In this document: positions 2,998-33,200 of the stretch, piece after piece
How positions within the stretch are numbered: the stretch's first letter is position 1
Layout: each line of letters begins with the position of its first letter
NCBI RefSeq assembly: GCF_010119545.1
Contig: NZ_JAAEAA010000020.1
Span: forward strand, 1 to 64,000
Direction: 5' to 3'
Source: Pontibacter fetidus
GTDB lineage: Bacteria; Bacteroidota; Bacteroidia; Cytophagales; Hymenobacteraceae
DNA: 64,000 nucleotides
The notes under the pieces: generated by a model
What the model was told of the DNA's origin: nothing
The model's input: the letters and a program-made list of their open reading frames with translations, nothing else
The model's database searches: none
Program-made: the position numbers and the translations under genes

Positions 2998-5900
2998 TTA
3001 GTTTAATATTACAAGTTTTTCAAATTTCGAGACTCCGGCACCATCCTTACGCGTTCGTACGCTGATCTTATATACATAAACGCCCCGTGCAAGCAAATCA
3101 TTATATTCATCGCGGCCATTCCAGGTTAGTGCTGCAACATGCGCAGGCGATGCCATACTTATAGTTTGTAATGTTTTAACAAGCTTTCCGGAGATTGTGT
3201 AAATCTGCACTTGTATATCCAGGTCTTCTCCGGCTCGGTTATGGTCAAAATGAAACGTGGTTTTAGTTGAAAAAGGGTTCGGGTAGTTAAGCACATGGTC
3301 TAACGAAAAATCCTCCGTATTAGATACAAAAAATTCTATATATTCTTCGGAAGCATTGTTATGGGTGTCCCAGGCCTTAAAACGGATGGAGTGCGGGCCG
3401 GGAGATAAGTCTTTTAGCGAATAACTGACACGCCCGCGCTGGTAACTGTCTTTCTCGGAAGTATAGTAATCGTTAAGTATGACAGGGTTTTCTTCGTTGT
3501 TGTCAACTATAGCAATCAGTTCGTGGCCTATGCCTAAACCTGCCGTGTTTATTCCGTTCTCATCAAAGAGTTTAACTAATAGCGACGGGTGCTGTCCGGT
3601 ACTGCCACCAAACACAAACGACTCATCTTCTAAGTACAGGTTTATAGTTGGAGGGGTGTTATCGGTGGCTATGTTTCTGGCAGTACCGCCTACTGTTATA
3701 GTTGTGTTTGCGCCCAGGGCATCCTGTGTGTTGTTGCTGGCATAAAGCGTAATCTTTCCGGGGCCATATTGGTACGCAATATCCTTGGGCACCACAAAAG
3801 CTACCGAAAACAAACCATTTGCTATAGTTGCGGAACCTTCATACAACACATTCTGGCGCTGTGTTACAGGCACAACCGGGGCGTTCTCGTCGCCAAAAGT
3901 TTGCTGGGTGGTCTGTTTCTCGTAAATCGTGATCCGAAGTGTGCCGCTATAGTTGGCTATTTTACCATTATCAGCTGTAATTTGGCCCTGCATAGTTACT
4001 TTTCCTAATGCACTTAAGGTATCGGTGCTGACAGCTTTACCATTTATATAGGTTATCTCTGCTTTCAGGTCTGGGGATGCCAGGCGCACAGCAGGGTCGC
4101 AAAGCAGCGTGAAATTACGGTTGTACACGCCCCGCGAACCGCTTATATTATCGGTAATGCTGTTGTTTTTAGTTTGGAGCACCAGGTCGCCGAGGCGGGG
4201 AGTAGTGCCTGGGGTTGGTGTAAAAGCGCTTTTAAAGAAGTTACGGTTAAGCACCCGGTTGCTGCTTGAGTATACTGGCCTTGTAGTGGTAACCAACCCA
4301 ACTGCTGCGCCATTGGCATGCAGCATCGCCACCTCAGCCCCGGATACGCGCGCTGGGTCATCGTAGCGGCCAAACTCACAGGTAGCAGTCAGCATAAAGG
4401 TAAGGTTGTCGGGGTTTTGCCAGTCGGTAACTTGTGGAAGCGTAAGTATCTGCTCCGATGCCCAACTCACCTCATTGCCATGCCCGGTATAGTTTACCAG
4501 CAGCGTGCCTTTCTCAACAGCTTCGGTCAGGTCTTGGTTAAGTTTGGGCGCACGCTGTCCGTTGGCAACAGCTTCCTGGCGGTAAAGGTCCAGGTATAGT
4601 TTGTTGGTGGTATAATCCGGTGCGTTGTTCTCCAGAAAATCAGCCAGAAATTCAGCATCTTCCTGGTGCTCGTTAAAGTCGCCATCGTCTGAAACCAGCG
4701 TTACCTCACTGCGCCACTTACCAAAATGGCTGTTACTTTCATACGCAATGATCTTATCAACCAAAACAGCAACTTCCTGCGGGTTTTTAGCCGGCAAACG
4801 GCCAATGCCAATGTCCAGTAAATGATCTCCTAAATTGTTCTCGGCCCATTCGCCTTCTTCCTCATCCAGGAAACCATAATAATCTTCGGAAGAGTAACTG
4901 GCAATAGGGTGCAGCGACTGGCGCGATTCGTAAACCGGAACCAGGTTGGTATTTACCGGGATGCGGTTCTTATAGTCGTAGGAAGCATCACCTAGCAACA
5001 ATAAATACATCGGCTCACCAGCAGGTTTGGTGCTGCGCTTATACAGCATCCGCATAAAATTACGGATAGCGGTTACGTCCTGTGCGCCCGACGAAAACTC
5101 GTTATATACCTGCGTAGTAGTTACAACTATGCTTTTCAGGTTACCTTTAGCATTGCGATGTGTTGCTAGCCTCTTAGCTTCCTGCAGTAGCGATGGGTGC
5201 GTGAGGATTACATGGTCTATCGTTCCATCCAGGTTAAGGCTGTGCAGGTTCTGGTTGGTTACTTTGCCTTTAATTATAGGTTTTAAGCTGATGTTGTTGT
5301 CTGTGAAAACGATAAACTCCCGTAGCACTGTAGCTGGGGCTGTAAATTGCAGCGTGCCGCTATAGTTGGTTTGTTGTTGTAGTGGCCGCAGCGGGTCAGT
5401 TATATCCCAAACTATAGCAGTGGCTGGGGCGTCCGCGATTCTATAGGTGCTTGCGCTGTTACCTATAGTTGCCGTTGCCCGGAAAGCAGTCTGGTCGTTG
5501 TATAGTTTAAGCTGGCGGTTGTAGTTCAGTTCCAGGTAGTTCAGGTAGCCGGTAGCTGTTGCATCGGAAGGCATGTTAAAGGTTATACCTGCTTTAGCCT
5601 CAGTTGCGCTGCCTAGTTGCTGTTGGTTAAATGTGAAAGTCTTGCTGCCGTTTACACCTTCGGGGTGGTAATTGTAAGTGCCGCGCCCGGCAATGGGTAT
5701 AGTTCCCAACAGGTTACTACCCATTTTTAAACTGAATGAGCAATCAGTAGCGGAATTGCCCATCACGGCTGCTGTTAACTTTATTTCCGAATTGGGAACA
5801 ATGCCTGTAACCGGAAAACTGACCTCGCGGCTGGGGTTAAACGTACTGAAATCCTCGCCATACCACTCACGCCCCGAATGGATGATGCTGGCCATGTCGC

Positions 5901-6870
5901 GTTCATGAAAAGCCCGTTCGTTAAAGGTAGTTATAGTTTGTGTGGGGCCTGTTGCCTGCGGCCGGTTCTGCACACGCGCCCCGGAAGTATAGCCTACCCG
6001 CAAAAAGTAAAAAGTGGTGTCAGAGTATAGATTGTAGGTATGCTCAAACTTGTTTTGCTGCGGATTATAGTTCCAGGTATGCGGCCCCTGCCCGTAAAAA
6101 AGTATAAAGTCGTTGTCGTTAAACTGCCCGTCCTGCTCACCACTTACAACTATAGCATTCTCCTGCAGATCATCTAAAACCGGCGAACTGTTTGGTTGGG
6201 GCAACATACCGCCGCCATTTCCAAAGATCTGTATGGTTTTAGGATCTAAACCTTGCGTGTTTATGCCAAGTGCCTGTAAGGTTGCCCTATCTATTTTATG
6301 GATGCCCGATTGCGTAACAGCCAATTTATACCACTCGCCTGCGCTGAGAACGGAGTTGTTACTATAGTTACTGTTTGCAGTACGGTTTATAGTATGGGTG
6401 GCTATAGTTGCAGAACCATAACTATAGCTGAAGCGGGTAAGTTTTTCGAGTTGGTTGGTTTGCGGGTTACGGCGGATGGGCAAGATGGAAACTATAGTTA
6501 CCGGTTGCTTACTTTGCCTTGCATTTTTAAACTCAACTATAGGCTCTGTGCCAAAAGTGATGCCCTTAAACTGCTGCTGTTCTTTAACTGAGAAAGGTGC
6601 AAATACAGCTTCTGTTACCTTAAAACTACCGATGTGTGTGTGCGGGATAGCTAACCGGTAATAAGGCAGTCGCTGTAACAGATCTATATTTGCACCCTTA
6701 AAAGCGGGGATTTTTGCCTCATGGCCTTGTGCCGGGAAAACGGCTTCCTGCGCATCCCAGGTAAGTTTAATGGGGTCCGGAGCCTTATGTTGGGCTACAG
6801 CTGTGCCGGCCATAACGCTTAAAAAAAGCAGGATGCATACCAGGAAATGTAAACGTGACTGCATAGGCAT
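2998..6870 (-). CDS. porU: Type IX secretion sortase PorU (C25 gingipain-like cysteine peptidase)
   Basis: A 1290-residue protein with a signal peptide ending near TAVAQ. The C25 peptidase core has its catalytic His in NYTGHG at about residue 793 and its Cys in TATCEFGR at about residue 830. The last 90 or so residues form a sorting-domain-like beta sandwich beginning LNYPNPFS and ending KFEKLVILN. PorU is the surface sortase that removes the C-terminal signal of T9SS cargo and joins the cargo to lipopolysaccharide. The length fits the family. It is followed by porV. The coding sequence carries many CTATAG sites, including one full AACTATAGTT at 6490. Confidence 0.93.
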   Translation of the reverse strand: MPMQSRLHFLVCILLFLSVMAGTAVAQHKAPDPIKLTWDAQEAVFPAQGHEAKIPAFKGANIDLLQRLPYYRLAIPHTHIGSFKVTEAVFAPFSVKEQQQFKGITFGTEPIVEFKNARQSKQPVTIVSILPIRRNPQTNQLEKLTRFSYSYGSATIATHTINRTANSNYSNNSVLSAGEWYKLAVTQSGIHKIDRATLQALGINTQGLDPKTIQIFGNGGGMLPQPNSSPVLDDLQENAIVVSGEQDGQFNDNDFILFYGQGPHTWNYNPQQNKFEHTYNLYSDTTFYFLRVGYTSGARVQNRPQATGPTQTITTFNERAFHERDMASIIHSGREWYGEDFSTFNPSREVSFPVTGIVPNSEIKLTAAVMGNSATDCSFSLKMGSNLLGTIPIAGRGTYNYHPEGVNGSKTFTFNQQQLGSATEAKAGITFNMPSDATATGYLNYLELNYNRQLKLYNDQTAFRATATIGNSASTYRIADAPATAIVWDITDPLRPLQQQTNYSGTLQFTAPATVLREFIVFTDNNISLKPIIKGKVTNQNLHSLNLDGTIDHVILTHPSLLQEAKRLATHRNAKGNLKSIVVTTTQVYNEFSSGAQDVTAIRNFMRMLYKRSTKPAGEPMYLLLLGDASYDYKNRIPVNTNLVPVYESRQSLHPIASYSSEDYYGFLDEEEGEWAENNLGDHLLDIGIGRLPAKNPQEVAVLVDKIIAYESNSHFGKWRSEVTLVSDDGDFNEHQEDAEFLADFLENNAPDYTTNKLYLDLYRQEAVANGQRAPKLNQDLTEAVEKGTLLVNYTGHGNEVSWASEQILTLPQVTDWQNPDNLTFMLTATCEFGRYDDPARVSGAEVAMLHANGAAVGLVTTTRPVYSSSNRVLNRNFFKSAFTPTPGTTPRLGDLVLQTKNNSITDNISGSRGVYNRNFTLLCDPAVRLASPDLKAEITYINGKAVSTDTLSALGKVTMQGQITADNGKIANYSGTLRITIYEKQTTQQTFGDENAPVVPVTQRQNVLYEGSATIANGLFSVAFVVPKDIAYQYGPGKITLYASNNTQDALGANTTITVGGTARNIATDNTPPTINLYLEDESFVFGGSTGQHPSLLVKLFDENGINTAGLGIGHELIAIVDNNEENPVILNDYYTSEKDSYQRGRVSYSLKDLSPGPHSIRFKAWDTHNNASEEYIEFFVSNTEDFSLDHVLNYPNPFSTKTTFHFDHNRAGEDLDIQVQIYTISGKLVKTLQTISMASPAHVAALTWNGRDEYNDLLARGVYVYKISVRTRKDGAGVSKFEKLVILN

Positions 6871-7943: not shown

Positions 7944-8579
7944 TTACTTCAAAAACGGGTTGTATTTTTTTTCGTGGCCTATAGTTGTTTCCGGCCCGTG
8001 GCCCGGGTAAACAGTAACCTCATCAGGCAATACAAAAAGTTTGGTTCTGATACTGTTTAAAAGTGTTTCGTGGTCGCCGCCGGGTAAATCGGTGCGGCCA
8101 ATGCTTTCCTGGAACAGCACGTCGCCGGCAATCAGCGTTTTATCTGTTTTGTTATAGAAAACCACGTGGCCCGGCGCATGGCCTGGCGCAAAAATGATCT
8201 CTAACGTCGTATTACCAAATTTAACCTGCTCGCCTTCTTTTAAATAGCTTGCCGGTAGCTGTTCCTGGTAATTGCTAATGCCATAAACCGGCGCATAAAC
8301 AGGTATGGCACGCAGGGTTTCCAGGTCTTTTTCGTGTATTTCCAGGCCTACGTTATAGGTATTGGCTACAAATTTATTGCCCAGCACGTGGTCTATGTGG
8401 CAGTGCGTGTTAAGCAGGCGCACTACTTTCAGGTTATTATCAGCGATATACTTTTTTAACTGCTCATTTTCGTGCTTATCAGAACAGCCCGGGTCAACAA
8501 CTACGCACTCGTTGGTGTCGTCGTGCAGCAGGTAGGTATTCTCAGCGAAGGGATTAAAAGTAAAGCGTGTTATTTCCAT
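7944..8579 (-). CDS. MBL-fold metallo-hydrolase, glyoxalase II-like
   Basis: A 211-residue single-domain metallo-beta-lactamase-fold enzyme. The di-metal motif THCHIDH is at about residues 57-63. Further ligand regions are PGHAPGH and, near the C-terminus, YPGHGPETT with HEKKYNPF. The layout is that of the short YcbL/GloB-like group, which hydrolyses thioesters such as S-lactoylglutathione or bacillithiol conjugates. The true substrate cannot be read from sequence. It is the first gene of a run with pssA and purS and is divergent from the FAD oxidoreductase. Confidence 0.87.
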   Translation of the reverse strand: MEITRFTFNPFAENTYLLHDDTNECVVVDPGCSDKHENEQLKKYIADNNLKVVRLLNTHCHIDHVLGNKFVANTYNVGLEIHEKDLETLRAIPVYAPVYGISNYQEQLPASYLKEGEQVKFGNTTLEIIFAPGHAPGHVVFYNKTDKTLIAGDVLFQESIGRTDLPGGDHETLLNSIRTKLFVLPDEVTVYPGHGPETTIGHEKKYNPFLK

Positions 8580-8656: not shown

Positions 8657-9742
8657 ATGATTTATGATTTTATAGTTGTGGGCCACGGCCTGGCCGGTGC
8701 CATTTTAGCAGAAACCTTACGCAGCCGCGGAAACAGTGTATTAGTAATTGATGAACCAAAAGAAAACTCTGCCTCGCGGGTAGCGGCTGGTTTACTGAAC
8801 CCGGTGGCTGGTAAGCGCTTTGCAAAATCGTGGCTGGCCGATACGTTTATACCTGCTGCCGATGCTTTTTACGATGCCCTGGAAGCACGCTATAGTCAGG
8901 AATTGTTTTTCCATAAGCCGATCTATAAGATCTTTTCATCCATAGAAGAACAAAACACCTGGATGGCTAAAAGCGCCGGTGGCAACTGGGATGACTATAT
9001 TTCAGCAACCTATACACAAAGTATAAATCAGCCAGGTATAGACGATCCGTTCGGCGGGATCATGATTGAGAAGGGTGGTTTTTTGCATGTATACGCAATG
9101 CTGGACCTGCTGACCGAAGACCTGTTGCAGCAGGGTTTATACTTGCCGGAGCGGTTTGAAATGAGCCAACTGCAACTGACCGAAGCGGGCGTAACCTATA
9201 AAAGTATAGCGGCGAAGCATCTTGTTTTTTGTGAGGGCTACCAGGTCGTAAACAACCCATACTTTGCGTGGCTGCCTTTGCAACCAACCAAAGGCGAAGT
9301 GCTGGAAGTACAGACCGAACAGAATTTCAGCCCGGAATGCATCTATAACAAAGCCGTTTACGTTGTTCCGGAAGGAGGTGGTCGCTTTATAATAGGCGCT
9401 ACCTACGACTGGCGAAACCCGGATGAGAAAATAACGGAGCAGGGGAAAGAGGAGTTGGCAGAACGGTTCCGGCAAATTACTACGCAGGCGTTTTCGGTTA
9501 CCGGGCACTGGGCAGGCATACGCCCCGCCGTCCGCGACCGCAGGCCGTTGGCAGGCACGCACCCAACCCATAAGCAACTGAGTGTGTTTAACGGGATGGG
9601 CTCGAAAGGTGTATTAATGGCGCCTTACCTGTCGCAGCACGTTGCTGATGCACTGGCCGGACAAACAGAATTAATGCCTGAGATACATATTTCAAGATAT
9701 TATTCGTTATATTACGACTATATAAAACACCAAAACCTATAA
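8657..9742 (+). CDS. FAD-dependent oxidoreductase (DAO/glycine-oxidase-like)
   Basis: A 361-residue protein with an N-terminal dinucleotide-binding fold: GHGLAG at residues 9-14, then VLVIDE ending the second strand. It also has the RVAAGLLNPVAGKR segment and a C-terminal GIRPAVRDRRPLAG followed by FNGMGSKGVLMAP, as in D-amino-acid/glycine oxidases and the oxidase half of MnmC. It would oxidise a C-N bond of a small amine or amino acid. The MnmC methyltransferase half is absent, and I cannot assign a substrate. It opens a plus-strand run; the next gene starts 10 bases later. Confidence 0.82.
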   Translation: MIYDFIVVGHGLAGAILAETLRSRGNSVLVIDEPKENSASRVAAGLLNPVAGKRFAKSWLADTFIPAADAFYDALEARYSQELFFHKPIYKIFSSIEEQNTWMAKSAGGNWDDYISATYTQSINQPGIDDPFGGIMIEKGGFLHVYAMLDLLTEDLLQQGLYLPERFEMSQLQLTEAGVTYKSIAAKHLVFCEGYQVVNNPYFAWLPLQPTKGEVLEVQTEQNFSPECIYNKAVYVVPEGGGRFIIGATYDWRNPDEKITEQGKEELAERFRQITTQAFSVTGHWAGIRPAVRDRRPLAGTHPTHKQLSVFNGMGSKGVLMAPYLSQHVADALAGQTELMPEIHISRYYSLYYDYIKHQNL

Positions 9743-9752
9743 CCCTAAGCGC

Positions 9753-12700
9753 ATGCGTTTTTATACCAGGTTACTTTTGCTGTTTGTGTGCTTACTGGCG
9801 GGTACTGCCCTCCAGGCGCAACCCGGCCGCGACCCATTTGGCAAGAGCCGCATCCAGTATAAAAACTTCGACTGGAAGCTCTACAACACACAGAACTTTA
9901 ACCTGTATTTTTACAAAGGGGGCGAACAAACTGCAAAGGATGCCGCCGATTACGCCGAGCGCGAACTAAAACGCATTACCAGCCTGATCGGATATTACCC
10001 ATACTCCAAAATAACGCTTATCCTTTACAACTCGCCTACAGACCTGCGCCAGAGCAACATTGGTTTGTACTCTGATCAGTTCCAGACCGGTGGCGAAACC
10101 CTGTTCATGAAAAATAAACTGCAGCTGGCTTACGATGGCACCAAAACCGACTTTAAAACCCAGCTAAGCTACCAACTGACCGAACTGCTGCTGAACGACA
10201 TGATGTATGGTGGAAGTTTAAAAGAAGCCCTGCAAAGCAGTTACCTGTTGCGTTTACCTGAGTGGTTTGTAACCGGTGTGGCCGCCTATACTGCCGAAGG
10301 CTGGAGCCTGGATATGGACAGCCACATACGCGACCTGTTGCTGGATGGAAATAAACTGCGCCCCGAGCAAACCCTGATGCGGTACCCCGAACTTACCGGC
10401 CAGTCTGTCTGGAATTACATTGCGGAGCGCTACGGCTATACTTCGATACAAAATATACTTAACCTTACCCGCATAACCCGCGACGTAGAAATAGGCATCA
10501 CCAGCAGCCTGAACGTACCTTACAAGCGCTTTCTGCAAGACTGGCTAAACTATTACCAGCAGATAAATGCCCGCTCTGATAACCCGTTTGTGTCGTTGCC
10601 GGATGATAAAAAGCTATTTGATAAAAACAAGCGTGCCCTGCGCTATACCGAGCCTGTACTTAACCCTGACGGCACCCTGCTGGCGTATGCCGAAAACGAC
10701 CATGGCAGTTATAAGATCATTGTAAAAGATGTAAAGGGCAGAGGCAGCCGTGTGGTATGGCGCGGAGGATATAAAACTTTAGACCAACCGACAGACTATA
10801 GTTTACCGGTGCTGGCCTGGCGTACCAATTCGCAGCTGGGCTTTGTTGAGAGCCGAAGAGGTAAAATGTTGCTGCGCCAGGTTAATGCTAAAAACAAGAG
10901 TTCGTTCCTGCCTTTTTATGATGACCTGACCAAGCCGGCTACTACTCTGGAGCGCTTTACCCAGGTGCGCGACATGAGCTATTCAGAAGATGGCAGCCAA
11001 GTGGTGATAAGCGCTGTAGATGGCGGGCAAACGGATTTATACTTACTGCAAAGTAACGGGAAACTGGTAGGGCAACTTACTAATGATATTTACGACGACG
11101 TAAGCCCGGTATTCCTGAAAGGTGGCAAAGGCATTGTGTTCAGCTCTAACCGTTGGGTAGATTCTACGGGCCGTGTGCAGCAGGCTTCGTTCCGGGATGT
11201 GGTGGATAACTATGACATTTTTCTGTTGCAGCAAACAGCGCCGGTAACGGTAACCCAACTCACCTCTGGTATAGCCAGCGAACTACGGCCACGTGCTACC
11301 GCCGATGGTAACTTTATTTTCCTGAGCGAAGAGAGCGGTATCCGTAGCTTGTATACCTATAATCTGGCAACCAATACGGCTACTCCGGTATCTAACTTTA
11401 TCCAGAACATCAGTGCTTACGACTTTAACGCGGTCAGCAGCACATTGGCACTTACGGCCAAAGACTACGGCCGCGATTTTATATACCTAATCCCGAACTA
11501 TAGTTTCGTAAGCCCGGCCAGCACCGACAACCAGCTTAAAACTGCCCGCCAGATAATACTGGAAACGCGCGCCCGTGTACCGCAAACATCCGCTACTACG
11601 CGCAAACTGCTGGATAACGATAAAGCTAAAACCGAAGACGAACGCACCGAAGGCGAAATAAATATAGAGAACTACGAGTTTGGAACAGAGGCCGCAAAAG
11701 CAGATACGATAGCCAAAACCGATACAACTGCCAAGGCTGCCGAAAAAGTGGTTGCTACCCCAAAAACAGGCACAGCTCCCGAGTTTAAGCTGTCGGGGCC
11801 TTTAAATTACGATACCCGTTTTAGCGTGCACGAGATCATCACGTCAGTTTATGCCGATCCGCAACTGGGTTTTGGTTTGGTGGCCGGTGTAAACATGAGC
11901 GACCTTTTTGAGAACCACCACATACGGGGCACCGCTTTTATCCGCACCGACCTGCAGACAAGCCGTACCTTTGCTGAGTACGTGAACCTGAAGAATCGTG
12001 TAGATATCGGGGTGCAGTTTAAGCGAGATGTGTTGGTTAGTTCGCTGCCAAACGCGCCATCAAACTTAGTACGCAATACTAAAAATGAGCTGGCACCGCT
12101 GCTGGTTTACCCGCTCAGCTATAGTACCAGCCTACGCGTGCAGCCACGCCTGGCAACCACACGCTTTACTTATGTAACCGAATTTGTAACACCAGATAGT
12201 GTAAATAACCTGTATGGCGGTAACGTAGAGCTGGTGTTTGATAACTCGGTTGTGACAGGCGTAAACATGATGGAAGGAACCCGCATGAAAGTGGGCTTAC
12301 TTAAGATGCAGGATTTTGAGAACAAACGAGCTAATTTCAACAAGTTTTACGTGGACCTGCGCCATTACCAGAAACTGCACCGCGAAATTATACTGGCTAC
12401 CCGCTTAAGCTATGGCGCTTTCTTCGGTAACTCACCTAAGAGCTACCTGATCGGTGGCATGGATAACTGGCTGTTTGCCGGAGAAGATAACGAGATAGAG
12501 CCCGGCGATGTAAACATACCATCTGCTCCCGAATTGTTTTACCAGGAATATGCAATGCCGCTGCGTGGTTTTAACTATAACGCCCGCACCGGTAACAAAC
12601 ACCTGTTGGCAAATGCTGAGCTTCGCATTCCTATACTTCAGTACCTATACAACGGGGCCATCGGGTCGGGCTTTTTCCGTAATCTGCAGCTTACCGCTTT

Positions 12701-12974
12701 TGCCGACGCCGGTTCAGCTTACAATGGCTCTAACCCATTCACGGGCAATAACTCCATTAACACGCGTATAGTGGGTGGCCGTACCGATGCTACTAACCGT
12801 AACCCATTTGAGATAACTGTGATCAACTACCGCAACCCGTTCCTGGTTGGGTATGGCTTTGGGGCACGGTCTACGTTGTTTGGGGTATATGGCAAGCTGG
12901 ATGTAGCCTGGAGCGAAGACGACCTGGGCAGCCAGGGCCCAAAACTATACGTAACGCTCGGCTACGACTTCTAA
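9753..12974 (+). CDS. Large outer-membrane protein: peptidase-like domain, TolB-type propeller, beta barrel
   Basis: A 1073-residue protein with a signal peptide ending at LQAQ. Residues about 30-250 resemble gluzincin/peptidase-MA proteins: LPEWFVTGVAAYTAEG matches the conserved PxWFxEGxAxY segment. The place of the HExxH zinc motif reads YQLTE, so the site appears dead. Residues about 290-560 carry WD40/PD40-like repeats as in TolB. A TEDERTEGE-containing linker follows. The C-terminal 370 or so residues end in a barrel of the surface-antigen/Omp85 type, with the final strand KLYVTLGYDF. Homologues are often annotated as TolB translocation protein, but true TolB lacks the barrel. It would sit in the outer membrane with a periplasmic propeller. 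Role unknown. Confidence 0.8.
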   Translation: MRFYTRLLLLFVCLLAGTALQAQPGRDPFGKSRIQYKNFDWKLYNTQNFNLYFYKGGEQTAKDAADYAERELKRITSLIGYYPYSKITLILYNSPTDLRQSNIGLYSDQFQTGGETLFMKNKLQLAYDGTKTDFKTQLSYQLTELLLNDMMYGGSLKEALQSSYLLRLPEWFVTGVAAYTAEGWSLDMDSHIRDLLLDGNKLRPEQTLMRYPELTGQSVWNYIAERYGYTSIQNILNLTRITRDVEIGITSSLNVPYKRFLQDWLNYYQQINARSDNPFVSLPDDKKLFDKNKRALRYTEPVLNPDGTLLAYAENDHGSYKIIVKDVKGRGSRVVWRGGYKTLDQPTDYSLPVLAWRTNSQLGFVESRRGKMLLRQVNAKNKSSFLPFYDDLTKPATTLERFTQVRDMSYSEDGSQVVISAVDGGQTDLYLLQSNGKLVGQLTNDIYDDVSPVFLKGGKGIVFSSNRWVDSTGRVQQASFRDVVDNYDIFLLQQTAPVTVTQLTSGIASELRPRATADGNFIFLSEESGIRSLYTYNLATNTATPVSNFIQNISAYDFNAVSSTLALTAKDYGRDFIYLIPNYSFVSPASTDNQLKTARQIILETRARVPQTSATTRKLLDNDKAKTEDERTEGEINIENYEFGTEAAKADTIAKTDTTAKAAEKVVATPKTGTAPEFKLSGPLNYDTRFSVHEIITSVYADPQLGFGLVAGVNMSDLFENHHIRGTAFIRTDLQTSRTFAEYVNLKNRVDIGVQFKRDVLVSSLPNAPSNLVRNTKNELAPLLVYPLSYSTSLRVQPRLATTRFTYVTEFVTPDSVNNLYGGNVELVFDNSVVTGVNMMEGTRMKVGLLKMQDFENKRANFNKFYVDLRHYQKLHREIILATRLSYGAFFGNSPKSYLIGGMDNWLFAGEDNEIEPGDVNIPSAPELFYQEYAMPLRGFNYNARTGNKHLLANAELRIPILQYLYNGAIGSGFFRNLQLTAFADAGSAYNGSNPFTGNNSINTRIVGGRTDATNRNPFEITVINYRNPFLVGYGFGARSTLFGVYGKLDVAWSEDDLGSQGPKLYVTLGYDF

Positions 12975-16199: not shown

Positions 16200-17133
16200 A
16201 CTCAAGTTGCGAGTTATTGAATGATTCGGTTTAAGGTGTAAGCAAAAATAAACAGGATCAGTTTTAGGATAAAGCCTTCGGGTGTAACGGCATGGATTTT
16301 TTTAGGAAAGAAGCTGGTAATACCTGAGAAAGAGGTTTCAATGCGTTTTCGGTACTGCTCTTTTAGAAAAGTCATGTGCGGCTCGTCCTTTCTTTTGCTG
16401 TTGGATTTGCGGCAACAATGCAGTTGGACCTGGTCACATTCTTTGAGCAGGTCTTCCACCTCATAACAGGTGTAACCGGCATCAGCATACAGGCAGCTTC
16501 CCTGGGGCAGGTCCAGTTGCATGGCTTTCAGGGCAGTAATGTCTACAAATGAGCCGGCATGGATGAAAAACTGGACTGGCAGGCCATCGTAGGTGGTGAT
16601 GACCTGTACGCGAAAGCCATAAAAATAACATCGTTTGCTTACACACAGCCCCCGGTACTGAGCAGATTGGAGCAGATGAGCACGCTGGATGCGGATGTTC
16701 TGGCACACAGCCACCGGGAAAGAATCATCAGGTAGGAACAAGAGGTGTTGAGCTGCTTGATACTCTGGGCCAGAGCTGAGAAAAGGGCCAGCAACTGCTC
16801 TTTTAGGGCGTGCAGGCGGCGGATAAAACCAGACTTATCAATGCGGCGAACCCCGTGATGGGCTTGCATGTAGCCATAGGCCGAGTGCAGGTTGCCGTAA
16901 AAGTAGCGGGCAGAAAGCAAGGCGGTGGTGAGCACTTCGGCGTCATTTATTTTACAATGGGCATCTTCTTTTCTGCCAATGGCATGAAAGAAATCGTCTA
17001 TAAAGCAGTATATTGTAATAGTCTGTTCTGTCATAGCTGTTACGAATTAATAGGTTTGCAAACTTTAAAACGTAAGCAAGCTACTGGCAGAACAGATTTT
17101 TTTATAACGCGTCAACTATCTCGCAACTTGAGT
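16200..17133 (-). mobile_element. IS982-family insertion sequence (about 934 bp)
   Basis: The ends are inverted copies of ACTCAAGTTGCGAG (16200-16213 and 17120-17133). They begin with AC, as IS982-family ends do. The element carries a single IS982-type transposase, split by a frameshift, and is flanked by 6-bp direct repeats TAATTA. It sits inside the first codons of the SulP gene. Size and layout match the family (about 1 kb, one transposase gene). Confidence 0.88.
16214..17034 (-). pseudogene. IS982-family transposase, frameshifted
   Basis: Two overlapping frames together make one transposase of about 274 residues. The upstream frame (17034 to 16639) starts MTEQTITIYCFIDDFFHAIG and matches the IS982 N-terminus. 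The downstream frame (open to 16214) carries the catalytic D in DSFPV, the second D in YADAGY and the E in RIETSF. The join falls where the family reads Y-L/I-I-D-S-F-P. Here TAC-CTG-AT-GAT-TCT lacks one base at about 16726-16729, so the break is just before the first catalytic Asp. I see no good slippery heptamer in the overlap, so an inactivating deletion is more likely than programmed frameshifting. Confidence 0.85.
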
Positions 17134-22304: not shown

Positions 22305-25001
22305 TTATAACACTAACACCTTACCAGCAATATAGTTACCGGTATCTGTTTTAATCCGAAGAATGTATAAGCCATTGTGCAAACCAGCAGTTGGTACCTG
22401 TTTGATCATACCAACTTCTTCAGACTCATACACCAACTTGCCTAACGGATCATATAACTGTACTATAACCGATTCGCTGGCCACTGCTACAGACAATGTT
22501 TCGCCTGCCGGTAGTGGGTTAGGGTAGGCCTGTACAAAATTTGCATCGGCGTAAAGCATTTCTTCGGGCTGGCTATAGTATACTTTGCCATCAGTAGCTG
22601 TGACTTTTGCGCGGTACACATTTTTGCCTAAACTTGGGTTTGCATCATGTAACTGATACGTAAATTGCGTAACCGGCGAAATGGTCTGCACCGGAGTATA
22701 GACACCGTTGGTTAAGCGCTCCAGGGCAATAGCAGAAACCTGGTACAGCGTGCCAAGCTCCAGGCGGAGAGCGATGCTATCGGATACAAACCTGTCCGGT
22801 AGAAAATTCTTGATGTAGCAGCCTATGCCTGACTGTGCAAACCCTACCGATTCGCTTATTTCAGCTTGTGTGCCTTCTATAACTGGTGCTATAGTTACCA
22901 GTTCGGGAAAAGCCGGTAGCTTGTCTTTCTGCAAAAAAGCCAGTGTATCGGAAGTGGATAGTAATGGCTCTAAGTGCGTTGTGCCAAGCTGGTATAGTTG
23001 GTATCGTTGCGTGTTTGGCAACTCCGGCCAATGCAGCATTACCTTGTCATCGCAGTTATAGCCTATAGCTAGTTTGAGTTGCTTTGTAAGTATAAATTCG
23101 CCCGATGTAACTGTAGCATTGGGAGTAGTAAGTCGTAGTTGTGCTTTCGCTACCACATCAGGAGTTTGCCAGTCGAAGTATAAATTACTTAGGTCTACGT
23201 TGTCTGCAATAAGTTGCCACGTTGTACTGCCTGTTAGCTTATATTCCAGTTTTGCTCGCTCTCCGGGTTTTGCGCCCTGCCACCGGATGCGGTTTACTTT
23301 ACCAGCCTTTAAACTCAGGTTTGTACTTGGGTAGGTCCATTCCGGGGCTGTTTCAAATTCATAAACCAGACTATAGTTTTGCGGGCCTTGGGATACGTTA
23401 AAGCCTTGCACTTTTAATTGGTAGGTACCTGCAGCAGGTGCAGTTAGTGTTATCTGTTCAACATTGTTCAGGTGGTCGGGGCCGCGCCGGGCTGGTAGTC
23501 TCAGAGAATCGGGGTGCGGGAAAGTGCTGAGTACCCATGGGTTCCATTTTTCGCCGGTTGCGGTGTTTACAAGCTGCAGGTCCAGGTCATTGTTAAGGGC
23601 TTTGGTTGCCTCCGGCGATCCTTCTGTGTCGTGCCACACCAGCGTCGCTTTTAGTTTAAGCGTGCCAGCCGGTACCGTTATGTTGTGCAGTTGCTGGGCA
23701 CCGGAAGTTATAGTTGCCCCTATAAACCGGCTCTCATCTACCGTTCTGATAGCGCCGAGCGCATCTGCATTCCCAAAACCAGCTTCAAAATCAACTTCGG
23801 GCCTTCCGGCATCATCGGCACTATTTATAAGTATAGCTTTTACCAGCGATGCAGGCGGTAAACTTCCGTGTTTTTCTTTGTAAGCTTGTTGCGTTAGTAA
23901 GGCTATACCAGAAACGACAGCCGCCGCCTCAGAGGTACCTCCTTTGCCATAGGCGGCCAGCTCTGGTTTTACGCGGCCATCATAAGCAGGGCCTTTAGAA
24001 CTCAGCAAACCAACACTGCCATTCGGGTCGAGCGCGCCTATACTTATCGTATTTTTAGATGTTTTAAATTGGCCCGTTAGGTTGGCAAAGCCTGTAATGC
24101 CGGCATAGTTGCCTGTTTCGTTTGCCTTGTCGCCGCTGTTACCCGACGAGAAAACGTGTAGCAACGTAGGGTTTTGATATGTTTCACGGTCGTAGGCGGC
24201 AGATTCTAGGCCATAGTAATTCTCGACGCCTACGCCATAAGAGTGGTTCTGCAAACTAATGCCTTTGCTAAGCAATGCCTGACTGTTATCCGGGAAAAAC
24301 TCCTTAAAATCGGAATAAGCTAACTTTGCATGGTCGGCTATGCCTCTGCCATTTGGGCCGGTGTTGCCGGCACCGGCAATAATAGTAGCCATCGTAGTGG
24401 CATGAAAAGTATACTCGCTGCCAAACGTTTCGGGAGCAATGGCCCGGCCTTTCAGGTCGGCATCATTCGGGTTAAAAGCACCTTCTTTTACTGATACCGC
24501 CATAGTCGCACCGTTCAGCAGCGGATATAAGCTGTGGATGGTATATACATTATTGACTGTGAAATCAGCATCTTTCAACTCGATCTCTTCCTTGGCCTGC
24601 CGGTTTGCTTTATCTATAAAGGTAACCAGATCGCAACCATATAGTTGTTGAAGGGTTTTTTCGGTGATATTAGAAAGCGTAAGCACCTGCCCTGAAGCAG
24701 TTGAATGCGTTACATTGCCCTGGTAATTATGCTCGGTCAGCCAACTCAGGAACTTTGCCTTATTCTTAACCTGAACCCTTACGGTGTGTATTCTGGAGAG
24801 GCGTATACTTTGTTCGAGACCCGGGGCGATGCGCTGGTGCCTGGCAATGCCTTGTATTGGTGTGTTTTGCTGCTGCGCCATTACCTGCGTGCTAACTATA
24901 AGTAAGCTCATCCCTAAAACACACTGCTGCACCAATGGCAGGTACTTCCAACGCTTATTCACAGGCACTTCGTAAACGGTTATAACCAGACACTGGTCCA
25001 A
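22305..25001 (-). CDS. S8 (subtilisin-like) family protein with T9SS sorting domain
   Basis: An 898-residue protein. Its peptidase-like domain has a His in FHATTMATIIAGAG (about residue 200) and a Ser in GGTSEAAAVVSG (about 354). The segment that normally carries the catalytic Asp reads AVSVKEGAF (about 168), with Glu where Asp is expected. A beta-sandwich and Fn3-like middle follows. The last 75 or so residues, from YPNPLPAGE to GKVLVL, are a type A sorting domain, so the protein should leave through the T9SS encoded in this window and be anchored by PorU. The N-terminus looks overlong: a GTG at 24962 (NKRWKYLPL onward, signal ending VMAQ) gives a normal signal peptide and may be the true start. 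Confidence 0.85.
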   Translation of the reverse strand: MDQCLVITVYEVPVNKRWKYLPLVQQCVLGMSLLIVSTQVMAQQQNTPIQGIARHQRIAPGLEQSIRLSRIHTVRVQVKNKAKFLSWLTEHNYQGNVTHSTASGQVLTLSNITEKTLQQLYGCDLVTFIDKANRQAKEEIELKDADFTVNNVYTIHSLYPLLNGATMAVSVKEGAFNPNDADLKGRAIAPETFGSEYTFHATTMATIIAGAGNTGPNGRGIADHAKLAYSDFKEFFPDNSQALLSKGISLQNHSYGVGVENYYGLESAAYDRETYQNPTLLHVFSSGNSGDKANETGNYAGITGFANLTGQFKTSKNTISIGALDPNGSVGLLSSKGPAYDGRVKPELAAYGKGGTSEAAAVVSGIALLTQQAYKEKHGSLPPASLVKAILINSADDAGRPEVDFEAGFGNADALGAIRTVDESRFIGATITSGAQQLHNITVPAGTLKLKATLVWHDTEGSPEATKALNNDLDLQLVNTATGEKWNPWVLSTFPHPDSLRLPARRGPDHLNNVEQITLTAPAAGTYQLKVQGFNVSQGPQNYSLVYEFETAPEWTYPSTNLSLKAGKVNRIRWQGAKPGERAKLEYKLTGSTTWQLIADNVDLSNLYFDWQTPDVVAKAQLRLTTPNATVTSGEFILTKQLKLAIGYNCDDKVMLHWPELPNTQRYQLYQLGTTHLEPLLSTSDTLAFLQKDKLPAFPELVTIAPVIEGTQAEISESVGFAQSGIGCYIKNFLPDRFVSDSIALRLELGTLYQVSAIALERLTNGVYTPVQTISPVTQFTYQLHDANPSLGKNVYRAKVTATDGKVYYSQPEEMLYADANFVQAYPNPLPAGETLSVAVASESVIVQLYDPLGKLVYESEEVGMIKQVPTAGLHNGLYILRIKTDTGNYIAGKVLVL

Positions 25002-27261: not shown

Positions 27262-30200
27262 TTATTGCAAACTAACTCGCAACTGTATGCCCCCTTCGGT
27301 TACACTGTTCCTAAACGAGGTCGATATTTTAGGGTCTGACACCGTGCGCAGCACATAGAACTGGATGTTTACGCGCTCGCTTATCAGGTAATCTATAGTT
27401 GGGCGAAGCTGCAACTGGCGCGTTCCGTTCGTGATCTGATTCTGGCTGCTCTCTACACCCTGGTCGTCGCGGGCAATAGCACGCTGCACGGTCTGGTTAT
27501 CTCTAACCGAAAAGTCCAGTCGCATGTTCAGCTCATTTTCCAAAACTTTTTTCTCACCGCCAATTCGTATCGGAATACGGAAGTTTGAAGCTACGTAGCC
27601 TAAGCCAATTACATAGTCCTTTACGCTGGTTTCTGTTATCTGTGCATTGGTCAGGTTCAGCGACAGGTTGCGTTCTACTTTATATTCCAGGCGGCCGGTC
27701 AGGTTTGTTTTTGTGCGGAAGTTAACACCCAGTAACGGTGCCAGTCTTTCGGCTACGGTAAGCTGCGTTACAATGTAGTAAGGTACGATCTGACCAAACT
27801 CATTTACCTGTGTCGGGAAGCCGTTCGGTTCTGTTTCGTAGGCCAGCGAGGTAGTAAAGTTGGTGATGTTGTAAGTAGAACTATAGCCATGCGTTAAGTT
27901 TACCTGGCTGAACCACTGCTGGAAGAACGGTAACTGCGACAAGCCGTTATAATCTACGCGCCAGTTAGGTATAGGCAGCCTGCTGAACGGACTCTTCGAT
28001 TCTGCTTTATACCCATTCACGTCGCGGCCCTGGTAAGCATACAGGAAAGCATTAAGCAATACATCCTGCGAGTTCAAAGTATAGCCATCGTTACCTGCAG
28101 CCGAGTTAGCAGCTAACAGCTTTTCACGGATATCATAACGGTAGCGAATGTAGTTCTCAAATGCTTCGGAAACGCCCGCCTCGCCAGACTCAAATAAAGT
28201 ACCCAGCGCCATAAACGATGTGCTGAACGCACCTGTTGTGATCGGGTTCTGACGCTGTGCCTCGTCACTGATGTTCCCAAAGTCATCATACTCTCTGCGG
28301 TAGAAAACCTCTTCTATTTCTGATTTATTACGGGTCACATCTAACTGAATATTGAAAGCTTTGAAAGGCTCCAGGTTGGCGCGCGCCGTAAACGACTCGG
28401 TAAGTATAGCGCTGAGCGGTGTGTTCAGGTACTGGCTGCTGTCAGTGTACCAGCCGTTGCGGTTGGCACGGTTGTATAGTTCGTCCAGGTCATATTGCTT
28501 ACCAAGTATAAACGGAAGGCCCGGCGCATCAAATCCTTCTTCAAAACCCAGGAACCTGGTGCTTGGCAGATAACCCGGTAACATGGTGCCTTTGTTTTGC
28601 AGGTATGTAAAGTTTACAGAGCGCGCCATCATCATAAAGCGGGCAATAGAGCTGGCAACTTTACCCGGAGCACTTGTTTTAGTAGTATCGTTGGCCGCAC
28701 GTACAGGGGCAGCAGGCGTGTTTACATTTTTCAGGAACTTCACTTTGTTGTAAAGTTTTACCAGGTCCAGGCGGCCGTTAACTGTAAACTCCTTGTTGTT
28801 TTCAGCGGTGTTACCTAACCTGAAATCTGCATCGTTATTCAACGCTGTAGAACCGGCCGTCCAGATATAAGTGGTAGCATAGCGCGTTTCCGCACCAATC
28901 CAGTCTACCAGCGGGAATTTATCTAAAGGCAGTTTATAGTTCAGTGCTATCAGCTGGTTAAAGTTGGTGGTGCGGCCACCGCGGCGCAGGTTTTCCCAGA
29001 TAATCGCATTCTTATACTGCAGCGAGTCTATGTCATTGTTGATGCGGTCATCTGGTTCGTCTACCACGGCACGGTTAGTCGCCGTATAGTCCAGCGACAA
29101 GCTCTTGGTAATGTCCCACTTCATATCGTAAATACGGTTGAAGTAGAAATACTTCTGGAAAGTTGGTTCGATACCGCGGGTAGTGGTAAGGCCGGTAACA
29201 GGGTCGCGGCGCTGCAGGAATGTCTCGTTGTAGCGACGGTCCAGATCGGCACGGAAAGCGAAACTGCTTGGCAGCGGCGTAAAGTTCAGGTCCTTTATCA
29301 GGCGCAGGTACGGCGACTTCAGCGATTCACTTTTCTCAAAAGGAGCGTAGTTCTTCGCGGTAGTATTGTTGTAAGTATAAGCAATGCCACCTGTGTAAGT
29401 CTTTGTAAAATCGCGGTCCGTTTCAATATCTGTAAATAAACGCTCGGCATAAGCATAGCTAAGCGAGATGTTCTCAATGTCGTAAGGTTTTACTTTATCG
29501 TTCGGGTTGGTGCGCTCTTTCCGTACGTTCAGTAAGCTAAAGCTTTTGCGGGTCTCGCGGGTTGTTACTTCTTTTTTGTAAGCATCGCGGGCTTCCTTCG
29601 TTTCAAATCTTGAAAGCGATTGTTCCAGTGGCACATCCTTATCCAGTGGGTCAAACTGTGGCTCGCTGTTCAGGGTACCATATTGCACCGATAACGGCAC
29701 TTTTACACCCAACTTTTCTGGTAGGAATTTATCAGCTACCACATTGGCGCTAACATCAAACAAGGCGGTGTTTTCGCGGGCACGTTGTGCAATTTTCTGC
29801 TGCAAGCCACCAAAACCAACTGTAGTATAAGCACCAGTGGCTGTAACGTTGGCAAAGTCAGCAAGCTTGGTGTTAAGGCGTGCATTGGTAGCCCAGCCCG
29901 AGCTGTTCTTAAAGTCTGTAACGCGCAGTTCATCCACCCACATGCATAACGAGTGCGGGCGGGCATCTGAACCAATTTGAGTCGGGTTGCGCATTCCTAT
30001 CATCACGCCCTGCACCTCGCTAAAATCCGGGTTACCCACTACACGGATGATCTTGCCGTTACCCAGCTGTACTTCGTAAGGAATCGTTTTATCGTAGCCA
30101 GCTATTCTGTTACGGGCTACTTTGGCGTTTACTAATTCTTCCAGGGCAATGTCTACCAGGTTTTCCTGGGGCCATATTTCGTTAGGCGACAGGCTGCCTT

Positions 30201-33200
30201 TCGGTGTTATAGTTAGCGGCACGACATACTCGTAATAGTTCTGTGTAAAGTCAGTACCGATGCGCACAAAAGCCTGCACATCGCCGCTACGTGTATTCGG
30301 GTTATCCGTCTGCGCATGCAAATACATTTTCAGGCGCTTATAGATCAGCATGTCAATCGACAGGTTCTTGTACACTGCCTTCGAGAAAGAATCTTTCAGG
30401 TCTTCCACGCACAACTGCAGCGACTGCTCGTTCTGGCGTCGGTTGTTAGTGGAGGCGTAATCGCGTAAGCGCTCGATGCCTGGAGGCACTACATACGGTA
30501 TATTTCCTTCGGTTGCCTGGCCGTTTTCTTCAATGTTTACTGTAGAGATGGTAAAGGTGCGGGCATCGTCGGTACAGGTAAGGCAAGGGCGGCCCTCTGT
30601 GATTGGTTGCTGGAACGCCCGCCACTGGTTAGCTACAAACTGGAACTGCACCAAACGTAACACCACCGGGTCCTGGAACTGGGTCATGTACATACGCATA
30701 AACCTGATAGACTTAAACCCGCTGATGTTACCCACATTGCCTGTAGGCTGGCGCACCGGTATCCGGAACTGGTACCACGAAACTTCATTGCCTGTTCTTG
30801 GGTCGGTGTTGGTTACCTGGTCTACGATATAGTTTTGCCCAACATTCAGCTGGCCTGGCTGCAGGTTAACTTTATACTCATAATACTGTTCCACATCGCT
30901 TATCACGTTGTCGCGGTTCAGGTCTTCTTTGTCCGGGAAGGCATAGTTAGAAAACTGGCTGTTCTCTGGTGAGTTACCATCCATGCCGTTATAGTTCTTG
31001 TAACGTGCCAGCACACCTGCGTTCTGTTGGTCATAGATCGGGTCGAGGTGGTGGAGGAAGTTATCGCCGGACGGGTCATCAACTACAATCTGGGGTGGCG
31101 TGCCCGGTATCTGGTTCAGGAAACTTGCTCTGAAAAAATCAGCTTCGGCAGCGTCATTTAAACCATCCAGACCAATATCCTGAAACTGGCGGCCGCCCGG
31201 TATACCTGTAAAGGCATCGGTCAGGAACTGCTGTGTAGTAATGCGTCCCCAGATAGTGGCATCTATATTCTGAAGGCTGTTGGCTGTAGTTGGCAAACCA
31301 TTCTCAAAAGCATATTGGTTATCGCGCAGTAAGTCTTCAGATATACTTCCCAGGTTCAGGACCAGCTCACCACCGGTGTTGTTGGTTACCGGGTTGCCCT
31401 GCGCATCTTTACGGCCATATTGTCCTGAAATAAACGGGTCCATCATCCAGAACTCAATGTACTCGATGTTGGCATTATCAAAGTCAGTATCAAAAGTAAC
31501 CTCACGGCTGATACCTCCCCAGTTTTCTCTAGGGTCTCCGGCCAGTAAGCCCTGCGATGTCAGGTTAGGGTTATAGTTGTATTGGCCGCGTTCACGAGGG
31601 TAATAAGCCAGGTCAAAGGTATATTCAAATGCGTTGGATACTTCCGGATCGCGGCCTCTGAAAATTTCGGTGCGTGGTACGCCCCGCACGTAATGGTTCT
31701 TTAGCTCTTCGTCGGTAATGTTATCCGGTTTCAGGTTATCTGCGTCGCGGTAAAAGATCTGATCAATGGTATACCAGGCCAGTTTTGCGCGGTTGTAACT
31801 ATAGGCAAGTCCTTCGCCGGGAATAAGTGGGGCAGGAGTGGAGGCAAGTCGCCAGCCATTATTGCTGAAACCACCTAAACTATAAGGCGTTTCCGAGCCT
31901 TCAAAATCATCGATATAAGAGGTTCCGTCTTCGTTTGCCGGTGATTTGGTTTTAGCTGGTACCAACTGTGCAAACTCGCCACTGAACGTGATGCTGGATG
32001 GCGCTTTGGTTTGCAGCAATGGCAACGCATCCGTCATTTTGGTCAGGAACCTCGATTCTTTCTGCAGGTTAATGTCTACGCCGTAAATGGTATTGTTGCT
32101 TGGCTCGTCGCCTATACTTACCCGGTTAATGTAAGGTTGTTCGCTCAGGTGCAGTACAGTTGCCCCAAGGTTAATATCATCGGTCAGGCGGTAGTCGAAG
32201 CGGGCACCCACCAAAGCACGTGGCTGAATGTTGAGCAGTTCTGCTTTCTCGTAGGTTACCCGTAAATCGCTGGCTGAGCTGATATAGCTTGGGTTAAGTA
32301 TTTTGATGCGGCCCAGGTCGTAGAACACCTGGTAATCGGTGCCCTCGGTGAGGCGTGTGCCACCAGAGTAAACGGCCACAGAGCCCTCTGCAATTCTGAA
32401 ACCCGGAAGCGTAATTTCATCGGCAGAAGTAGCCTGTAATCGGCCCGTCAGGAAAAACTTGGCTTTGGCGTTATTTTGCTGGGCATCGGTCTGTGTCTGG
32501 TTGTATAATTCTTCAAACACATACTTCTCGGCCAGTTCCGGGTCGCCTTGTAGTTTCTGGCGTAGGTAATCGCCAAAAGGCTCCACTTCCGGGAAGTAAA
32601 TGCGGCCGGTTTCCGGATCAATCGTTATACCTGGTAAAAAGTCGAAGTTACCGTCGTTTGGCTTGTCGTTGTTGGTGTTAACATTATCCAGGTTAAAAAC
32701 TTCTACAAGCGGTATACCTTGTATCGGGCTTTGCTCTGTAAGTGCAGATATATCAACACCGGTCTGGTCATCTTTGTACACAACACGCAACTGGAAGTTT
32801 TCGCGGTTTACCTGTGTAGCATCCAAGCTATAAACGTTTTTCATCATCAGGTCCCAGGTCGGGTATTCTAAAGATGGGTTTGTAGCCTTCAGCAATTTCA
32901 TGTGTATCACCTGTTCATCCTGCAGGTTCTGGTAATCTTCCAGCAGCTCACCTACCTTATAGGTTTTGCCATTGTAGGTATACTCAAACGCTACGCCTAG
33001 TACCTGGTCCGGTAAAAGCGCTGTATTCAGGGAAATATAACCCAGTTGAGGGTTAAAATTATACTCGCGCGGGTCCATTTTGCGGGCACGCACATGTTCA
33101 AAATCTACCCCTTTCTGTAATCCCTGACCACGCAGGTACTCATCTACACGGCCATTGTCGCGGGCGGCTGCGTTGGTTGCTACCAGACTATAAAGGGTGT

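Follow-up and report, generated by a model that had tools for sequence, protein, structure and literature searches.

A putative pseudo-peptidase fused to a TolB-type propeller and an Omp85-type barrel across Bacteroidia

The 64,000-nucleotide stretch of contig NZ_JAAEAA010000020.1 analysed here (the window) carries, at 9753..12974 on the forward strand, a gene for a protein of 1073 residues in which a peptidase-like domain, a TolB-type propeller and an Omp85-type barrel are fused. We hold with about even confidence that this protein is the class-wide pseudoenzyme form of a gluzincin–propeller–Omp85 protein, and that its dead domain binds without cutting. The alignments and tree described below show that the predicted zinc-site residues persist in relatives from other parts of the phylum and disappeared once, in the line of descent to the window's class; the protease-like part probably now binds proteins rather than cutting them. 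"Class" and "phylum" are used as kinship labels of the sampled genomes. The closest named relatives of the source genome belong to Pontibacter (best segment up to 82% identity), and from their GTDB placement we take the window's class to be Bacteroidia.

Results

Domain architecture

The fusion gene starts with ATG and is present in one copy in its own genome. A signal-peptide-like leader was read from the sequence at residues 1–23 (MRFYTRLLLLFVCLLAGTALQAQ; 9753..9821), and no lipobox was seen in these residues by eye. The leader is followed, all on the forward strand, by a gluzincin-fold pseudo-peptidase domain (N-domain; residues 27–275, 9831..10577), a TolB-type beta-propeller (residues ~283–590, 10599..11522), a 90-residue linker that is variable in the conservation analysis and of low confidence in the AlphaFold model (residues 591–680, 11523..11792) and an Omp85/BamA-type beta-barrel with an invariant D-F end (residues 681–1073, 11793..12971). 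The first-pass annotation had proposed such a three-part fusion, and the AlphaFold model together with the VIA and Foldseek matches bears this out. The full-length AlphaFold2 model, built on 69 aligned sequences, had a mean predicted local distance difference test score (pLDDT) of 81.1 and a predicted template modelling score of 0.80. The N-domain assignment draws on fold matches, on profile alignment and on the presence of PF13485 in intact relatives outside the class.

Loss of the active site

The N-domain was also modelled alone (pLDDT 79.8). Foldseek returned eight matches with E < 0.001, all of them clostridial collagenases (9e-5 to 6.5e-4), and the VIA comparison gave Z scores of 14.3 for Grimontia collagenase (7wss_A), 13.8 for lugdulysin (M30, 7bb8_A) and 13.2 for Escherichia coli PepN (M1, 2dq6), with a range of 11.7–14.3 among the 50 matches listed; for mostly helical folds, Z below ~13 can reflect a common arrangement. 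Because the helical fold makes Z alone ambiguous, homology of the N-domain to gluzincins was settled by sequence evidence. An in-class alignment of N-domains (A3, 62 rows) was compared by hhalign with an alignment of intact N-domains from outside the class (A5, 26 rows), giving a probability of 100 and an E value of 4.1e-54 over 243 columns, with the site ungapped. In this alignment, H-E-L-V-H falls onto Y-Q-L-T-E (residues 140–144, 10170..10184), and I-P-L-W-F-N-E-G-L-A-E-Y falls onto L-P-E-W-F-V-T-G-V-A-A-Y. The change from HExxH to YQLTE read in the first-pass annotation was thus exact, as motif counts also indicated. The same annotation had described the downstream motif PEWFVTGVAAY (residues 169–179, 10257..10289) as kept, and this was right in part: P169, W171, G175 and Y179 are retained, but both glutamates of NEGLAEY, the motif that intact relatives typically carry as P-W-NEGLAEY, are replaced by T174 and A178. 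The window protein consequently lacks HExxH, and both candidate downstream glutamate zinc ligands are gone.

Relatives outside the class that still carry HExxH identify the domains by family profile. PF13485 (Peptidase_MA_2) was found above its cut-off in five of five such proteins (45.8–56.9 bits vs 32.4), as was PD40 in the same five, and four of the five exceeded the Omp85 cut-off of 24 (35.8–39.6 bits), the fifth (L184) having no Omp85 match. BLASTP aligned the window protein end to end with one intact relative from outside the class (L173) at 25% identity (E 5e-81). A Pfam scan of the window protein alone gave nothing above any cut-off and listed neither PF01103 nor PF13485, and phmmer against the PDB found no credible sequence match for it; these blank scans are resolved because the relatives outside the class and the fold search identify the domains. 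A PF13485 search of the source genome also found no match, and is uninformative because the controls were silent too.

Distribution and phylogeny of the loss

The generality of the loss was assessed in loci L001–L326, counted as distinct N-domain sequences and not as genomes, with six short alignments skipped; the set is weighted toward the best-scoring matches and toward 80 named loci (80 kept of 583). Within the class, HExxH is missing from 214 of 226 distinct N-domains, and all 12 that have it bear the type-B motif (HVLGHELVH, HVLGHEMVH or HVIGHELVH), "type B" being a motif label in this count. Outside the class (n = 48), 41 sequences carry HExxH, six are type B with HExxH and one lacks it (L188). 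The first-pass annotation had held that homologues retaining HExxH would speak against a dead peptidase. The YQLTE-type loss indeed holds in the class, and 47 of the 48 sequences outside it are intact; these intact homologues strengthen the reading, because they reveal a genuine HExxH as the ancestral state of the site, lost thereafter. Moreover, the in-class type-B paralogue serves as an internal control: since it still has HExxH, a blanket loss of such sites throughout the class is argued against. The highly divergent in-class members (L265–L284), too, have no HExxH in any case where the site is alignable.

Several individual sequences were recorded alongside these counts. The in-class type-B sequences (L197, L198, L253, L264, L292–L294, L300–L302, L316 and L323) share H-V-L/I-G-H-E-L/M-V-H-A-F-Q-Y, and one genome (G337) has both a type-B copy (L264) and a dead-type copy (L157). 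In the in-class family f40 (L238, L241 and L255), HExxH is gone and NEGLAEY or SEGLAEY is retained, a half-way state. In L188, from outside the class, RELAL stands in place of HELVH and NEGLAEY is retained, an independent loss.

For the tree, 238 sequences were thinned to 98 (greedy, >52% identity) and then to 92 rows by removal of six long or partial in-class rows (L272, L275, L276, L281, L282 and L283), none of which has HExxH. All 66 dead in-class rows lay on one side of a single branch with a Shimodaira–Hasegawa-like approximate likelihood ratio test (SH-aLRT) support of 97, in a tree made by a quick method, unrooted and with two blocks of site columns excluded; its long branches were flagged, and at one node two long dead rows join each other. 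Four type-B rows were included; the three from the class cluster with the one from outside it (support 99). The pattern of dead and intact rows requires two changes on this tree, the second being L188. The direction of change is taken to be loss, because both paralogue types have HExxH, which is also the usual state in the wider peptidase family. As judged from these sequences, inactivation in the window's class is one ancient loss, with one independent loss elsewhere (L188).

Conservation and selection

Residue frequencies were compared between the dead (n = 214) and intact (n = 41) sets; as the sets are defined by HExxH, H140, E141 and H144 differ by construction and the other positions do not. 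E174 is present in 100% of intact and 16% of dead sequences, and E178 in 98% and 5%. Further positions held in 98–100% of the intact set fall to 2% (Y213), 6% (R122), 1% (G111), 3% (P126) and 7% (K231) in the dead set. W41, N102, G129, P169, W171, G175, G216 and Y227 are held at 93–100%, and other positions are intermediate.

The dead domain nevertheless looks like a maintained pseudoenzyme in sequence comparisons, with constraint eased across the wider class. Among the 69 mostly Cytophagales sequences, mean identity was 0.534 for the N-domain, 0.458 for the barrel, 0.386 for the propeller and 0.249 for the linker. The ratio of nonsynonymous to synonymous change (pN/pS) in eight Pontibacter-like sequences followed the same order (N-domain 0.176, barrel 0.265, propeller 0.363 and linker 0.541), although these are rough values, because each domain has 5 to 10 pairs, out of 28, with saturated synonymous sites. 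Across the class at large, the ratio of N-domain to barrel identity was 1.00 in 46 dead rows vs 1.30 in 17 intact rows; since it is lower in dead rows, constraint on the N-domain eased with the loss. The missing catalytic residues and this lowered ratio would both fit a peptidase domain that is simply dying. Such a decaying relic is extremely unlikely: the loss is single and old, on one branch of the tree, and the domain can still be aligned across the sampled class and, by its conservation and pN/pS, is under purifying selection.

Barrel and propeller

The first-pass annotation had also asked for a predicted structure with a barrel, and one was found. Using VIA, the barrel (residues 689–1073) matched Flavobacterium johnsoniae BamA (9n2d_A) with a Z score of 25.6 and a root-mean-square deviation (rmsd) of 3.8 over 311 aligned residues, and among the matches listed, Omp85 structures of the BamA and TamA type gave Z scores of 22.1–25.6. 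The propeller (residues 308–588) matched E. coli TolB (1crz) with Z 23.0, rmsd 2.9 and 17% identity over 242 aligned residues. Foldseek results for the full-length model were concordant with the VIA matches. In the barrel, R938 and G939, located in the loop after strand 879–892, and the C-terminal D-F are invariant in the 69 sequences; the RGF motif to which they belong (LRGF, residues 937–940, 12561..12572) is L6-loop-like and presumably corresponds to the Omp85 L6 motif.

Family scores were low by comparison. In the genome-wide Omp85 search, PF01103 matched the fusion gene at 12318-12770 with 24.7 bits, just above the cut-off of 24, and the general Omp85 model NF047779 (Omp85_fam) gave the window protein 23.5 bits, below its cut-off of 200. 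The best NCBIfam model was TolB (TIGR02800), yet at 64.0 bits against a cut-off of 343.15 the TolB equivalog threshold was not reached; a TolB label would miss the other domains, as the first-pass annotation had warned.

A plain assembly factor of the BamA–BamB kind, with the barrel inserting outer-membrane proteins, the propeller acting as BamB and the peptidase fold as a mere spacer, would account for the presence of both barrel and propeller, and this is the hypothesis given for WD40-Omp85 proteins in the excerpts of PMC4104836. We regard it as unlikely here. A spacer would not need an N-domain that is conserved as strongly as the barrel (wider class) or more strongly (mostly Cytophagales), and the source genome holds six further Omp85 matches, five of them above the cut-off.

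The TolB-like propeller might instead belong to a Tol-like tether, in which it would bind Pal/OmpA-type peptidoglycan-binding proteins, couple the barrel to the wall and replace a missing soluble TolB; the source genome has no TolB match above the curated cut-off, its 13 matching stretches all lying below. This is quite unlikely. The propeller type is unspecific, with matches to the TolB model in several other genes of the same genome, and the genes adjoining the fusion gene within the window are not Tol genes. Moreover, deletion of chu_1429 ("tolB") in Cytophaga hutchinsonii left filter-paper digestion and growth in PY6 unaffected according to the excerpts of PMC5891637, the equivalence of chu_1429 to the fusion gene being unconfirmed.

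No POTRA domain was found among the Pfam matches of the fusion protein or of the scanned relatives, with the limit that divergent POTRAs can escape and that the low-confidence linker offers 90 residues; ahead of the barrel, residues 27–590 are occupied by the gluzincin fold and the propeller. A barrel that is C-terminal and Omp85-like would also suit a display or secretion device, whose N-terminal domains cross the barrel and end up on the cell surface, a route proposed for PlpD, a patatin-Omp85 protein (cited in the excerpts of PMC4104836), so that the dead domain would be a surface binder. With a large, folded propeller that is joined to the barrel by a variable linker, this is very unlikely.

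Occurrence and gene neighbourhood

Matches to the fusion protein were found in 176 of 198 sampled class genomes. A 20-sequence profile matched 272 of 296 sampled phylum genomes, some of these matches being type B or propeller-only.

An FAD-dependent oxidoreductase gene (DAO; 8657..9742, + strand) ends 10 bases upstream of the fusion gene, and a DAO gene is immediately upstream in 73 of the 76 named loci with enough upstream sequence. Beyond it lies a divergent gene for a GloB-like hydrolase of the metallo-beta-lactamase (MBL) fold (7944..8579, − strand). In 15 in-class loci of other families, an MBL gene adjoins the fusion gene in nine and a DAO gene in two. Among the 66 named loci with ~8 kb of upstream sequence, DAO is present in 64, and MBL, a CDP-alcohol phosphatidyltransferase and PorU in 59 each. 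The phosphatidyltransferase and PorU have to do with lipids and secretion, but they lie on the opposite strand and several genes off, and give at most a weak hint at an envelope role.

The window also encodes the type IX secretion sortase PorU (2998-6870, − strand; NF033707, 1401.5 bits), the type IX translocon protein Sov/SprA (27262-34440, − strand; TIGR04189, 2443.6 bits), a subtilase with a type IX secretion C-terminal sorting domain (22305-25001, − strand) and an open reading frame with a transposase DDE domain (16214-16741, − strand; 174 residues, possibly a fragment). A link to type IX secretion by co-occurrence was considered and rejected: SprA is present in 191 of 198 class genomes, and of the 20 listed class genomes in which the fusion protein has no match (22 in total) 16 carry it as well, so that its presence does not discriminate.

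Discussion

The barrel would reside in the outer membrane, and the peptidase-like domain and the propeller would occupy the periplasm, where BamA bears its POTRA domains. The built-in periplasmic sensor or chaperone proposed in the first-pass annotation is a hypothesis on function. In relatives outside the class, the active domain may cleave clients that reach the barrel, as a built-in quality-control or processing protease resembling BepA. In Bacteroidia, cutting would have been dropped and binding retained, so that the dead domain and the propeller may keep client polypeptides, or partner proteins, close to the barrel, and the barrel may assist the insertion, passage or retention of what they hold. 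We speculate, tentatively and with somewhat less than even confidence, that a zinc peptidase tethered to Omp85 occurs throughout the phylum and that a single event at the base of Bacteroidia converted it into a binding module devoid of catalysis. Kept under selection in the class since then, this module would give a new outer-membrane client receptor or chaperone in which a pseudo-protease and a TolB-type propeller take the POTRA role.

Several observations weigh against the pseudoenzyme reading, in addition to the saturated synonymous sites and the eased constraint described above. What is said of the function of the fusion protein draws on sequence and a predicted model. At least 22 of the 198 class genomes have no match, among them all five listed genomes of family f29, so the fusion protein is not universally required. 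The adjoining genes, an oxidoreductase and an MBL hydrolase, do not suggest outer-membrane assembly. Outside the class, L188, which has lost HExxH, scores 32.3 bits for PF13485, short of the cut-off of 32.4, and the type-B sequence L195 is not listed for that family. Furthermore, the words WD40 and TolB are absent from two excerpted accounts of isolated Bacteroidota BAM complexes, in species whose gene content is not established.

The fusion protein is widespread in Bacteroidia, apparently unstudied and nearly invisible to family libraries. Its distribution amounts to a natural experiment, with one envelope protein present with and without an active site in sister lineages. Comparison of the intact and dead forms lets one ask which tasks at an Omp85 barrel require cleavage and which call for binding alone, and why lineages differ in assembling or policing the outer membrane.

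Comparison with known systems

The propeller–Omp85 architecture was already known; what is new is that the N-domain descends from a peptidase, that it was inactivated once for the whole class and that it has been retained in its dead form. No account of the peptidase domain in Omp85–propeller proteins, of its ancestry or of its inactivation was found in the open-access papers searched. The WD40-Omp85 subfamily was defined in 2014 by Heinz and Lithgow, who proposed a role like that of BamA–BamB (excerpts of PMC4104836). Its members are described there as having an N-terminal WD40/TolB-like propeller, with TolB as the nearest propeller, and an Omp85 barrel, and in the model of the window protein a propeller likewise precedes an Omp85 barrel; the excerpted subfamily description gives no peptidase domain. 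According to the same excerpts, Omp85 subfamilies other than BamA, TamA and Lipo spread horizontally and are conserved at genus level, whereas the window-type gene matches most sampled genomes of the class. The "Metallo" subfamily of PMC4104836 also combines a barrel with a domain termed a metalloprotease, but this domain is PF00149 and not PF13485, and no propeller is mentioned for it in the excerpts.

PF00149 is the calcineurin-like phosphoesterase family; the N-domain of the window protein resembles instead the gluzincins of the Peptidase MA superfamily (PF13485, M9, M30 and M1) in its fold and in its homology to relatives with HExxH and EGxAEY, and differs from them in having lost the catalytic residues and in giving no PF13485 match. 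The type-B paralogue (HVLGHELVH followed by AFQ or SFQ) shares the peptidase-like domain and the propeller, with a barrel-region profile match in one case (G114), but it retains HExxH in the class too (12 of 12 distinct sequences with the motif). One type-B-like protein of 633 residues, annotated as a basic secretory protein-like protein, is encoded on Salinibacter ruber plasmid pSR116 (L334:2944-4845); it has HVLGHELVH and a PD40 propeller, and no Omp85 match was found in it.

BepA-like periplasmic metalloproteases (M48) have HExxH and a TPR domain, act at the BAM complex and are not fused to a barrel; in function, the active relatives outside the class would parallel them. TolB of the Tol–Pal system shares the propeller fold and is soluble with no membrane barrel, whereas the model of the window protein adds a barrel and a peptidase fold to a propeller that scores far below the TolB cut-off. 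Finally, BamA and TamA share the barrel fold and the RGF motif, and the window protein differs from both in having a propeller and a putative pseudo-peptidase in the place of POTRA domains.

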